A stretch of 64,000 bases of DNA, taken from the NCBI RefSeq assembly GCF_000237325.1, contig NC_017542.1:4728001-4792000 (forward strand), read 5' to 3'. Positions 54,670 to 58,161 of this stretch are shown piece after piece. Origin of the DNA: Paenibacillus polymyxa M1 (GTDB lineage: Bacteria > Bacillota > Bacilli > Paenibacillales > Paenibacillaceae). The notes beneath the pieces are model-generated. The model saw only the letters and a list, made by a program, of their open reading frames with translations. It was not told the DNA's origin and did no database searches. The number at the start of each line of letters is the position of its first letter. Position 1 is the first letter of the stretch. The translations under genes were made by a program, and so were the position numbers.

Positions 54670-55359
54670 CTATTTTCTTTTTCGTTTCATACTACGAATG
54701 GTCGTTTTCGTTGCCTGATCCACCCGGTATGATTCTGTGATTTTTTGCAGAGCCTTGTTGAAAGTAAAATCGTCTAATGCATTATGACTTAAATACGCCA
54801 TCGTTACCTCAGGCAGCTTGATATAACAGATAGATATAGCCCAGGCTACCGCCATTTGTACATAATAATCCTCACGATGGGTCTGATCTAGCAAAGTAAG
54901 CACCCGGTTAATATACTGTTCTTCAATATAAAAATTCAGCAGCATAACCACCCCAAACCGAATTTCATATTCTTTCTTAGAGAACAGATAGGGCTGAATA
55001 AAATCCCATACTTTTTCTTTATGTTGTTTCGTGATTTTCAATCCGGCACAGAAACTATCGCATACGGACCAATTATCAATTTTAGGAACAAACTTGGCGG
55101 TATAACTCAAAACTTCCTCAATATCTGTTTTTACAGAACCAATCACCATACCTTGCAGCATCACTTCTTCAAAGTGCTCACTTTCGGCGGTCTCCAGATA
55201 AAGTCGCCAATCTCCTTTGGCAATATCTTGAGCCAGCTTACGCAGCACCGGCAGACGCACACCCAGCACATTATTAATCGTTGGCAGCAATGCAGCCGTA
55301 AATTTCTGAAAATCCGTATCCACTTGTGACAGTATCTGCTCTCTGATGGTCTTCTCCAT
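54670..55359 (-). CDS. AlkD-like DNA alkylation repair protein (HEAT-like repeats)
   Basis: 229 residues, all-helical, of the ALK repeat family: VRLPVLRKLAQDIAKGD, KIDNWSVCDSFCAGLK and WAISICYIKLPE are characteristic. These proteins excise or bind alkylated bases such as 3-methyl- or 7-methyl-purines. A longer frame reaches 55455, but GGGAG precedes 55359. Last gene of the adaAB cluster, 19 nt after the AlkA-like gene. Confidence 0.9.
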   Translation of the reverse strand: MEKTIREQILSQVDTDFQKFTAALLPTINNVLGVRLPVLRKLAQDIAKGDWRLYLETAESEHFEEVMLQGMVIGSVKTDIEEVLSYTAKFVPKIDNWSVCDSFCAGLKITKQHKEKVWDFIQPYLFSKKEYEIRFGVVMLLNFYIEEQYINRVLTLLDQTHREDYYVQMAVAWAISICYIKLPEVTMAYLSHNALDDFTFNKALQKITESYRVDQATKTTIRSMKRKRK

Positions 55360-55378
55360 ATTTTCCACTCCCTGTTTG

Positions 55379-55996
55379 TTAACGAAATGAAATGCTCCAC
55401 AAATAAATGGAAGCCACTGAACCATAAGGTGAATACACTCGGCGATACTCCTCAAATTGCTGCTTGGTCAGTGTATCTAAATGGTACAACTTCATCATTC
55501 CCCGCCGAATAGCCATATCGCCCCAACTGACGACGTCCGGACGTTCCATGCAATTAATCAGCATCATTTCAGCTGTCCAAGGGCCTATCCCTTGTAGCGA
55601 GGATAATTTCTGGATCACCTGTGTATCAGAAAGCTCATATAATTCCTGTAAATCCAACAATCCCTGCTCGATCGTTTGGGCTATATTCAGGATACATGCT
55701 GCTTTTTTCATGGTTATGCCACAGCTTTGAATTTCCTGAGCCGTCTGAACGGCTATATTTTGCGGAGTGATCGCGCCTAATTTCTCCTGCATCCTTGTCC
55801 ATATGGTCTGAACCGCCTTGGCCGAAATAAGCTGCCCCACAATCGCATGAACAAGCGCTGCAAACAGGTCGGGAATGATTACGCGTTCTACCTTGCCCAT
55901 TTGCGTTATAGCGGCACCAAGTACGGTATCTACCGTTTTCAGGTAGTTGATTTCCTTTTCTCCATAGTCAAAGTTTTTGGTCATGACCGTTTCCAT
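55379..55996 (-). CDS. HhH-GPD DNA-3-methyladenine glycosylase (AlkA-like)
   Basis: 205 residues, shorter than E. coli AlkA. Helix-hairpin-helix LQGIGPWTAE (about 134-143) and a probable catalytic Asp at about 160 (VSWGDMAIRRG). It excises alkylated bases. The ATG at 55996 has GGGAG at 5 nt. 62 nt downstream of the radical SAM gene in the adaAB cluster. Confidence 0.9.
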   Translation of the reverse strand: METVMTKNFDYGEKEINYLKTVDTVLGAAITQMGKVERVIIPDLFAALVHAIVGQLISAKAVQTIWTRMQEKLGAITPQNIAVQTAQEIQSCGITMKKAACILNIAQTIEQGLLDLQELYELSDTQVIQKLSSLQGIGPWTAEMMLINCMERPDVVSWGDMAIRRGMMKLYHLDTLTKQQFEEYRRVYSPYGSVASIYLWSISFR

Positions 55997-56058
55997 TCGT
56001 TCTCCCGCTCCCCTTGTATGGTACACTCTTCATTTTAATTGCATAGGCTGCTTTCATA

Positions 56059-56874
56059 TCAGGGCTCAAATCCTTCTTTGCTCACATAGAGCTGTTCTTC
56101 GGGAAAAACATGAAGAAAACGCTCATAAACCGCCTTATAGGCGGCAGGGTGATACCATTCTTCCAGCCCCAATGACTCGTACAGCGCACCAATGTTCAAG
56201 CTGCGCGTCCGCCTTCCCCCGCTGCCGTCTCCCATAAAATAATCATCAATACAGACACGGTTGACCAGAGGCACAAGCTTGTCTGCAAAATGCTCACTGC
56301 TTGGCAGCATCGGAGCAATAGTAGCTTGCGTCGGCACACCTGCCTCTTTTAAAAGTTGCAGCGTTTGGAGACGAGCCTGGATGGGAGGAGCTTCCGGAGT
56401 GAAATGTTTGCGTATATCCTCACGGTCTGTTTCTACCGTGATACTCACACGTACACGTTCCTTCAATTGGAGCAATAAATCAACATCTCGTCGTACAAGC
56501 GGACTACGCGTCTGTACAAAGAGAAAATCTGGCGGATCTTCCACCATCACTTCCAGCAGAGATCGGGTCACCTCTTCCTTGTACTCGGCCGGCTGATAAG
56601 GGTCAGTGCTTGACGACATAAAAATCGTGACTTTCCCTCTAGATTGGGCCCTGCGAAGCTCCTTGCGAAGAATATCTGCCGCCTCTTTTTTAATATCAAC
56701 CCATGTTCCCCAGGCTTCCCTCCGAAACGTAGAGACTGGCAATTGGCGTACATAACAATACGAGCAACCAAAGGTACAGCCGGTATACGGGTTCAACGAG
56801 TGTGTATACCCTGACAAGAAGCCGGTTCCTTTATTCAATAGAGTCTTGGGAGATTTGTAATACTCATTTTTCAT
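56059..56874 (-). CDS. Radical SAM protein, spore photoproduct lyase-like (SPL family)
   Basis: 271 residues. Radical SAM cysteines C33, C37 and C40 (CTFGCSYC) after LNPYTGC, and SSSTDPYQPAE in the next strand, as in SPL-family/Rv2578c-like proteins. The true spore photoproduct lyase repairs UV spore lesions, but this family also has members of unknown activity. The ATG at 56874 has GAGG at 6 nt and lies 14 nt after adaB, so it belongs to the alkylation-response operon. Confidence 0.87.
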   Translation of the reverse strand: MKNEYYKSPKTLLNKGTGFLSGYTHSLNPYTGCTFGCSYCYVRQLPVSTFRREAWGTWVDIKKEAADILRKELRRAQSRGKVTIFMSSSTDPYQPAEYKEEVTRSLLEVMVEDPPDFLFVQTRSPLVRRDVDLLLQLKERVRVSITVETDREDIRKHFTPEAPPIQARLQTLQLLKEAGVPTQATIAPMLPSSEHFADKLVPLVNRVCIDDYFMGDGSGGRRTRSLNIGALYESLGLEEWYHPAAYKAVYERFLHVFPEEQLYVSKEGFEP

Positions 56875-56888
56875 ACCTAACCTCACTA

Positions 56889-57422
56889 CTATATTGATTT
56901 GTGTGTGCGATTTTTTTCAAGCTGCAAAAGCTTCACCTTCATGTCCAGCCCCCCACGATACCCGGTCAAAGCTCCATTCTTACCAATGACCCGGTGACAA
57001 GGGATGGTGACCAAAATCGGATTAGCACCGATGGCAGAACCTACCGCACGAACAGAGTTCGGCTTTTGAATAGCGTTGGCAATATCTGAATAGGATTGTG
57101 TCTCCCCATACGGAATATTACACAGCGCGTTCCATACAGCCATTTGAAATGCAGTTCCATGAAAGTCAAAAGGGAATGTAAAATGTGTGCGCTCCCCTTG
57201 GAAATATTCAATCAACTCCTTGGCATAGAGCTGTAAAACGATATCCTCTTCAACTAAAGGACTGTCGGGAAATCGACTTCCTGCCCATGTTATCAATTCC
57301 TCTACAGGTTGATTAAGCGAACCGACATAACATAATCCTTCCGATGTAGCTGCAATATATAAATTCCAATCCTCGTGCGTCAATAATGACCAATAGATCG
57401 TTTTATTCATTTGATGTACCAT
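56889..57422 (-). CDS. adaB: O6-methylguanine-DNA methyltransferase AdaB/Ogt
   Basis: 177 residues. Acceptor Cys in PCHRVIG (about 132) and the DNA-binding SVRAVGSAIGANP segment. It removes methyl groups from O6-methylguanine irreversibly. ATG at 57422 with GGAGGT 7 nt upstream; overlaps adaA by 20 nt, so the two are coupled, as in B. subtilis adaAB. Confidence 0.94.
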   Translation of the reverse strand: MVHQMNKTIYWSLLTHEDWNLYIAATSEGLCYVGSLNQPVEELITWAGSRFPDSPLVEEDIVLQLYAKELIEYFQGERTHFTFPFDFHGTAFQMAVWNALCNIPYGETQSYSDIANAIQKPNSVRAVGSAIGANPILVTIPCHRVIGKNGALTGYRGGLDMKVKLLQLEKNRTHKSI

Positions 57423-58008
57423 GCTGTGTACCTCCTTTTTGAGTTGCTTTGGATTCGAGTTGGCGATACTGCAACGGGGTGTAACCTGTATTCTTTTTAA
57501 ACAACGTAATAAAGTAAGGGATATTGGACAGACCTACGTTCTCCCCCACTTCCGCAACAGATTGATGTGAGCAAATAAGCAGCTTCTTCGCTTGTTTCAA
57601 CCTAGTACGCTGTATATATTCCATCGGAGTGACATGCATGATTCGCTTGAAGGTACGATGTAAATGATACGGGCTTCCATGACTTATCTCTGCCAGGACG
57701 TGCAATGTTAAGTCCTTCATATAGTTCGAATCTACGTATTCTGCAACTCCTGCGATCCAGTCGTGATCAGGCAATCGTTGTCCTGTCGGTTTACATCTTT
57801 TACACGGACGAAAATGCTCAGCCAAAGCCTGCTCTGCTGATGTAAATAAACGGATGTTCTCTCTTTTAGGAGGTCGGGATTTGCAGGAGGGGCGACAAAA
57901 TATTTTCGTTGTCTTCACAGCATACAAAAATACCCCGTCATAAGACTTGTCATTTTCTACAATAGCTCTCCACTTTTCGTCTGTTATGGATAAATCGGAT
58001 GTGCTCAT
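57403..58008 (-). CDS. adaA: AdaA-type methylphosphotriester-DNA methyltransferase and activator
   Basis: 201 residues. N-terminal Ada domain with zinc cysteines C38, C42, C69 and C72 (FCRPSC, RPCKRC) and a C-terminal AraC-type HTH (LTLHVLAEISHGSPYHLHRTFK). Methyl transfer from a phosphotriester to a Cys turns it into an activator of the adaptive response. GAGGGGA precedes the ATG. First gene of the operon that ends at 54670. Confidence 0.94.
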   Translation of the reverse strand: MSTSDLSITDEKWRAIVENDKSYDGVFLYAVKTTKIFCRPSCKSRPPKRENIRLFTSAEQALAEHFRPCKRCKPTGQRLPDHDWIAGVAEYVDSNYMKDLTLHVLAEISHGSPYHLHRTFKRIMHVTPMEYIQRTRLKQAKKLLICSHQSVAEVGENVGLSNIPYFITLFKKNTGYTPLQYRQLESKATQKGGTQHGTSNE

Positions 58009-58051: not shown

Positions 58052-58057
58052 ATTATA
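58052..58057 (-). promoter_or_regulatory. Candidate -10 element of the adaA promoter
   Basis: TATAAT on the minus strand about 44 nt upstream of adaA, with no good TTGACA 17 nt before it. Activator-dependent promoters often lack a -35, as expected for an AdaA-driven one. Confidence 0.35.
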
Positions 58058-58108
58058 AACTAAATAGTGAACATATGTACCCCTCCTGGAATGTAAAAGC
58101 AAGATAAC

Positions 58109-58137
58109 GAAAAAAAGTGACTCCGCGCGGAGCCACC
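58109..58137 (-). terminator. Terminator after the AGCS symporter
   Basis: GTGGCTCC/GGAGTCAC arms with GCGC loop, then seven T on the minus strand. Confidence 0.88.
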
Positions 58138-58161
58138 TTTGATTTTAGTTCTCTATCTTAT

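Follow-up and report, generated by a model that had tools for sequence, protein, structure and literature searches.

What is a radical S-adenosylmethionine (SAM) protein doing among the genes of an adaptive response to DNA alkylation? This question is raised by a stretch of 64,000 nucleotides (hereafter the window) from the 6.2-Mb genome of Paenibacillus polymyxa M1, in which a radical SAM gene is located between adaB and the genes for a DNA glycosylase and an AlkD-like protein. In Bacillus subtilis, the Ada adaptive response includes an adaA-adaB operon with alkA adjacent to it. A first-pass annotation of the window had connected the radical SAM protein with the alkylation response and proposed for it a function in the repair or sensing of alkylation damage to DNA or RNA. 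Based on a conserved gene linkage and a promoter element shared with adaA, we conclude that the protein almost certainly belongs to the Ada regulon; a role in repair or sensing of DNA or RNA damage may then be considered.

To obtain relatives, species genomes were scanned with the radical SAM protein, and the best 80 of 192 places were picked by sequence and not by context. The radical SAM gene had adaA or adaB no more than 5 kb away in 63 of the 80 loci, and at least one alkylation gene in 74, leaving six loci with none. The co-occurrence with adaAB in other genomes, on which the first-pass annotation had made its proposal depend, was thus found by genomic context. The partners within this distance were adaB (61 loci), adaA (56), a PF09859 2-oxoglutarate (2OG)-Fe(II) oxygenase (42), alkD (28), a glycosylase of the window type (26), and a longer alkA with an OGG_N domain (25). 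By clustering, the neighbour families present in at least 20 of 140 loci were the radical SAM and alkylation families only, the next family being present in 14. Neighbour genes in the further loci were recognized by hidden Markov models built from the 80 loci, and divergent partners may be missed. After exclusion of two fragments (L045 and L067) from the tree, from the by-family count and from the cysteine count given below, 78 loci remained; a partner was present in 55 of 60 loci of Paenibacillaceae, 13 of 13 of Bacillaceae, 3 of 4 of Thermoactinomycetaceae, and the single locus of Anoxybacillaceae. The gene order is variable, including a divergent alkA with adaA-adaB-oxygenase-radical SAM, oxygenase-adaA-adaB-radical SAM, adaA-adaB-radical SAM with either glycosylase-alkD behind it or a convergent alkD-glycosylase, and others. 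The linkage between the radical SAM and Ada genes is not due to chance.

As a control, we used 149 genomes sampled evenly from the order. Here the radical SAM counts are those among the matches listed, and the adaA reference consists of the 90 strongest AdaA rows (at least 174 bits); two radical SAM rows of genome G027 were left out. Among hits of at least 380 bits, 48 of 55 followed a same-strand adaA within 10 kb: 34 of the 37 hits of at least 400 bits and 14 of the 18 between 380 and 400 bits. Below 380 bits, only 5 of 93 hits were near adaA. Two of these were intact genes (374.7 and 370.7 bits, in genomes G057 and G084) among the 34 hits between 300 and 380 bits; the other three, among 59 hits below 300 bits, were two pieces of one broken copy and one fragment. 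Inspection by eye detected no weaker AdaA row within 10 kb of a listed radical SAM row. In 60 regions hand-picked mostly from the weaker hits and read directly, adaA or adaB was nearby in four, and alkA in one more. Since the linkage drops below about 370-380 bits, the idea that the whole radical SAM family of this order is Ada-linked was rejected; linkage is confined to one clade at this score and above. The closest named relatives of the window gene, among the matches listed, are from Paenibacillus. The broken and fragmentary copies beside adaA (G101:C1:2227491-2228307 and G129:C21:12385-12657) represent gene loss in place.

In one large Paenibacillus group of this sample, adaA is followed by the radical SAM gene at a distance of 12-30 nt, with no adaB between them. 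Such a direct and adaB-free arrangement could be explained if the radical SAM protein repaired or modified a protein, for instance by restoring the cysteine that becomes alkylated in AdaA or AdaB. Copies of the gene persist, however, without adaB or adaA nearby, and we know of no precedent for radical reversal of S-methylcysteine. Protein repair therefore seems most improbable to us.

The second line of evidence is the promoter element. By de novo search of the regions preceding 59 adaA genes, a motif with the consensus ATTTCGtTATCTTGCTtTTacATT was identified in 51 of them. A position weight matrix (PWM) was trained on these regions, and the element is herein designated the Ada box. The site upstream of adaA in P. 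polymyxa M1 is the sole strong Ada box in the window (58113-58090), the next-best site scoring 11.1 bits. It is also the single exact match of TATCTTGCTNTTNNATT in the genome, where the reversed control pattern gave one match as well. On genes outside the training set, the PWM detected the element upstream of 14 of 18 separately transcribed glycosylase operons and 7 of 15 detached radical SAM genes (in a 220-nt upstream region), against 0 of 46 other radical SAM entries and 0-1% of shuffled controls. Throughout 1.93 Mb of loci, 109 sites of at least 15 bits were found, compared with two in one Markov-1 shuffle. For 101 of the 109, a regulon gene starts adjacent on the same strand: adaA in 61 cases, glycosylase in 14, oxygenase in 10, radical SAM in 7, adaB in 5, alkD in 3, and alkA in 1. 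A TATAAT-like −10 box followed the first nucleotide of the ATCTTGC core by 47-48 nt at 100 of the 109 sites, versus 16 of 3000 random positions, and this spacing holds in six of the seven sites preceding detached radical SAM genes. A same-strand box within 3 kb upstream was observed for 74 of 80 radical SAM genes, versus 0 of 56 relatives without ada, and none was found within 3 kb downstream. For further Ada-linked radical SAM genes, the box was within 3 kb upstream in three of four, the box of the fourth (L121) being farther away. Twelve additional Ada-linked loci, not used in training, were hand-picked from the 149-genome sample, nine of them from the group with adaA directly before the radical SAM gene; all 12 carry the element upstream of adaA (12.1-33.1 bits; 10 at 15 bits or more).

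Most weight is carried by the detached genes, 15 radical SAM genes with neither an ada nor an oxygenase gene closer than 5 kb. In four cases (L010, L011, L031 and L081), the radical SAM gene has its own box, and adaA-adaB-oxygenase with another box is located elsewhere in the genome; in L010, provided that contig C1 is the chromosome record, the distance between them is about 1 Mb. The genomes of L016 and L026 contain a more distant AdaA only, which is preceded by a box of 24.1 bits in the former and by none in the latter. Some of the boxed detached genes may have been left behind, together with the promoter, when an adaA-adaB stretch was lost. Altogether, the neighbourhood conserved in four Bacillales families and the adaA element on detached copies strongly support the tie to the alkylation response that had been proposed from the window alone.

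The same data bear on the idea that the radical SAM gene is a passenger, kept in the operon by common descent and having no role in the response. The existence of broken copies, and of many genomes with a strong adaA and no radical SAM copy of at least 380 bits (38 of the 90), would be consistent with a passenger. The variety of gene architectures and the correctly spaced element on detached copies, on the other hand, need selection, and we find the passenger explanation scarcely credible.

The layout of the operon in P. polymyxa M1 is summarized in the table. After checking of coordinates, domain scores and start regions, the five same-strand genes described by the first-pass annotation were all confirmed, as were the overlap of adaA and adaB (20 nt) and the gaps of at most 62 nt (14, 59 and 19 nt).

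Table. Features of the alkylation-response operon and its upstream region, with positions in the window
Feature	Position	Strand	Remarks
adaA	57403..58008	-	Regulator; Ada metal-binding domain PF02805 (109.4 bits) and AraC helix-turn-helix
adaB	56889..57422	-	O6-methylguanine-DNA methyltransferase family; PF01035 (114.9 bits)
Radical SAM gene	56059..56874	-	271 aa; PF04055 (65.5 bits); Ada-linked clade
HhH-GPD DNA glycosylase, AlkA-like	55379..55999	-	PF00730 (45.9 bits)
AlkD-like DNA alkylation repair protein	54670..55359	-	PF08713 (54.5 bits)
Ada box	58090..58113	-	PWM 35.1 bits; ATCTTGC core starts at 58105
TATAAT −10-like box	58052..58057	-	48 nt after start of ATCTTGC core
Terminator-like hairpin 3' of upstream agcS	58113..58140	-	Terminator-pattern scan

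The radical SAM gene starts with ATG and has GAGG upstream. The score of the AlkD-like protein exceeds the PF08713 gathering score of 21 bits, its first two residues being omitted from the scan. Identification of the window glycosylase as AlkA itself (3-methyladenine glycosylase II) was rejected, as it reached 43.8 bits against the NCBIfam AlkA equivalog cutoff of 229; the domain scan detected HhH-GPD alone and no AlkA_N domain in this protein. On the operon's own strand, promoter-like matches exist at 57383-57354 (10/12) and 56699-56671 (9/12), and terminator-like matches within coding regions at 56546-56530 and 55223-55204. Over the whole window, promoter-like sites occur at the shuffled rate (7 found versus 7.6 expected), and terminator-like sites are commoner than expected from shuffling (9 versus 3.4). 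On these grounds, the five genes are predicted as likely to be carried on one unbroken transcript. In the region 58090-58140, the T-run of the agcS hairpin falls within the Ada box.

Several other sites of the element are worth recording. The oxygenase has its own element where it heads its operon (10 sites). A glycosylase-alkD pair, or alkD, with its own strong box was observed at L214:3661-3709 and L216:5642-5665, the former being back to back with that of adaA. No regulon gene was recognized beside the sites at L162 (1494-1517, 23.2 bits) and L154 (1501-1524, 19.1 bits). The same applies to a box of 34.5 bits at L176 (G065:C46, 1193-1216), which is aimed at a contig end about 1.2 kb off and could mark a further regulon member cut by this end. 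Upstream of more divergent AdaA genes (L191-L199), box-like sites were present in six of nine loci (15.8-24.1 bits), on which account the element may predate the clade. The PF09859 oxygenase (for example, L025:6304-7011 and L047:4859-5572) is encoded by 33 of the 149 genomes; in that of P. polymyxa M1, none was detected. Taken together, the Ada box is a candidate operator for the Ada response of Bacillales, and the PF09859 oxygenase is added to the regulon.

We then consider the radical SAM protein itself. Its PF04055 score is well over the gathering score of 29.5 bits, and the cluster motif CX3CX2C (C33, C37 and C40) is invariant in 63 aligned sequences. The best NCBIfam models were PA0069 (130.2 bits), mobile pair B (94.7) and Rv2578c (88.7), with respective cutoffs of 360, 410 and 430; the protein stays under the cutoff of every named NCBIfam model matched. 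In particular, the identity with spore photoproduct lyase (SPL) was rejected. The scores were 27.7 bits against a cutoff of 400 for TIGR04070 and 20.3 against 27 for PF20903, and a true SPL, scoring 494.5 bits and thus over the cutoff, is encoded elsewhere in the same genome. In SPL, the hydrogen-donor cysteine is C140 or C141, located after strand 2, and titles of PDB entries among the SPL structure matches name C140 mutants. In the window protein this cysteine is replaced: hhalign places Ser89 opposite the cysteine of ACTSDP in the SPL of the same genome. Ser88 is kept in 99% and Ser89 in 95% of the clade. The sequence after strand 2 reads SSSTDPYQxxE, of which TDPYQxxE is common to the PA0069-type relatives. 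The designation 'SPL-like' or 'SPL family' in the first-pass annotation accordingly holds in a loose sense, many relatives being named 'SPL family radical SAM protein' in databases and 18 of the 120 listed relatives carrying a precomputed PF20903 (SPL) hit, but it fails at the SPL cutoffs and the catalytic cysteine.

Beyond the cluster motif, C208 is the sole invariant cysteine in the 63 aligned members. All 77 members next to an alkylation gene have it, versus 18 of the 61 lacking such a neighbour, 10 of these 61 being remote rows in which the alignment is unsure. In the AlphaFold2 (AF2) model, C208 is located in strand 6 (E207-209), which would place it on the side occupied by substrate and AdoMet in radical SAM barrels.

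These residues are relevant to the possibility that the protein is a general COG1533-type DNA-repair enzyme of broad or non-alkylation substrate, such as crosslinks or photoproducts, which this clade has put under Ada control just as relatives are under SOS control. Two reports describe SplB-like radical SAM proteins as members of SOS regulons and as associated with ImuB-C and with uracil glycosylase/DUF4130 (PMC3765255; PMC8565304), and in a third they adjoin archaeal NreB, the substrate being stated as unknown (PMC4929162). The core residues of the window protein are also common to relatives without an ada link. The clade is distinct at C208, however, the Ada element is retained in 7 of the 15 detached cases, and no SOS-type family is recurrent among its neighbours. 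We judge a general repair enzyme of this kind to be unlikely.

Alkylating agents damage RNA as well as DNA, and the protein might be an RNA enzyme for alkylation-induced repair or modification of tRNA or rRNA. The tRNA-acting radical SAM enzymes Elp3 and TYW1 are indeed among the fold matches. Against this, the recurrent partners are annotated as DNA-repair families, and no other neighbour family is recurrent among those annotated, which do not include all families. An RNA enzyme of this kind is decidedly unlikely in our estimation.

We consider as probable that the locus is an Ada-type adaptive-response operon of Bacillales, in which the radical SAM protein is a genuine regulon effector with an alkyl lesion of nucleic acid as its target. 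The same degree of probability is given to action on nucleic acid as such. A number of observations weigh against this reading. For the regulatory part, 8 of the 15 detached genes have no box in the 220-nt upstream region, though three of the eight have one farther upstream: L027 (beside an adaA remnant), L068 (preceding alkD-radical SAM), and L074 (at 6049, preceding a phosphoenolpyruvate (PEP)-mutase-like gene and the radical SAM gene). The 220-nt regions preceding 26 divergent alkA genes contained no Ada box, and the box counts for the adaA-linked training loci are partly circular. A short exact pattern of the element gave 31 matches in the 149 genomes versus 13 for the reversed control; 19 of 30 fetched places of this pattern adjoin a regulon gene, and one match (L179, genome G041) lies at an oxygenase-radical SAM pair lacking a full adaA or adaB, with an adaB-like scrap upstream. 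The short exact form is only moderately specific, while the full element with the −10 spacing is much more so. Moreover, the radical SAM gene is not essential to Ada, because it is missing at 380 bits or more from the 38 genomes mentioned above; among these, G057 and G084 carry a linked copy just below 380 bits, and two carry a broken copy. For the protein, C208 is not sufficient, as 18 partnerless members have it, and the precomputed PF20903 (SPL) hits of 18 listed relatives also count against the reading. In the AF2 model, the cluster loop (32-61) is poorly defined, and the fold hits are radical SAM barrels in general, with lipoyl synthase, viperin and NifB among them in addition to SPL; the structure thus gives no pointer to nucleic acid.

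Two additional copies and two neighbouring genes of relatives were noticed. The genome of P. polymyxa M1 contains a paralog of the radical SAM protein (L002:1456-2307, 46% identical) and a shortened second copy (L003:1558-2079). A common role for the paralog (L002/L116) was rejected, because neither an ada gene nor a box was recognized near it. The PEP-mutase-like gene between the Ada box and the radical SAM gene (L074:6203-6970, PF13714) has no relative among the open reading frames of loci L004-L143. On a Runella conjugative plasmid (L148:4944-8257), a distant radical SAM relative overlaps a gene for a UvrD-type helicase, with HipA-like genes adjoining.

A working model may be proposed as follows. 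The position of the element suggests that methylated AdaA binds the Ada box. The promoter at 58113-58052 would be the main one of the operon, and binding of alkylated AdaA would turn on adaA-adaB-radical SAM-glycosylase-alkD, together with the PF09859 2OG-Fe(II) oxygenase in other species. The radical SAM protein would hold one [4Fe-4S] cluster and, with AdoMet, generate the 5'-deoxyadenosyl radical. This radical might abstract hydrogen at an alkyl lesion of DNA or RNA that is poorly handled by transferases, glycosylases and dioxygenases, and the cycle would be closed by Cys208, probably as hydrogen donor or relay. The reaction would be SPL-like in kind, that is, direct reversal by radical chemistry, yet not that of SPL. 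Our confidence in any specific radical chemistry is much lower than that in action on nucleic acid. As a tentative possibility, we propose a fourth alkylation-repair chemistry beside the suicide transferase, the glycosylase and the 2OG dioxygenase, namely, oxygen-independent radical reversal with Cys208 ending the cycle. If true, alkyl adducts could be reversed where O2-dependent demethylases fail, or otherwise irreversible carbon-linked adducts could be removed.

Apart from SPL itself, SplB-like radical SAM proteins have a wide distribution. One of them is taken as the major photolyase of Paracoccus aminophilus (PMC3925955). The accessible portion of a survey of Ada-type regulators does not contain the term radical SAM (PMC10957082), and the open-access literature, represented mostly by titles and abstracts and excluding subscription journals, gave no report of a radical SAM member in an Ada regulon. 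The placement of one SplB-like clade in the Ada response provides a condition for induction and narrows the candidate lesions to a few, making the substrate question testable.

Finally, the system may be compared with those already known. With PA0069 and Rv2578c (NF033668 and NF038135), the window protein shares TDPYQxxE, common to remote relatives of the type, and these models are among the best-scoring; it differs in that its scores are far under the cutoffs, and ten fetched relatives of this type (L134-L143) are without a recognized ada gene or box. It resembles SplB (TIGR04070/PF20903) in the CX3CX2C motif flanked by Tyr before and after the third Cys, in the radical SAM barrel, and in the presence of SPL among the top fold matches; unlike SplB, it is shorter, has Ser opposite the cysteine of CTSDP, and scores below the SPL model cutoffs. 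As in the Ada system of B. subtilis, adaA is followed by adaB, and a divergent longer alkA is present in many of these loci; the radical SAM gene and, depending on species, the PF09859 oxygenase, the short HhH-GPD glycosylase and the AlkD-like gene are different. For B. subtilis, one report describes the split AdaA/AdaB, with splB and ada being dealt with as two distinct systems (PMC1976550). The E. coli Ada regulon (ada, alkA, alkB and aidB) includes no radical SAM protein among the members listed in an abstract (PMC3788762), and the oxygenase here is of the PF09859 type; the two regulons are nevertheless alike in assembling an alkylation-type set of transferase, glycosylase and oxidative demethylase.

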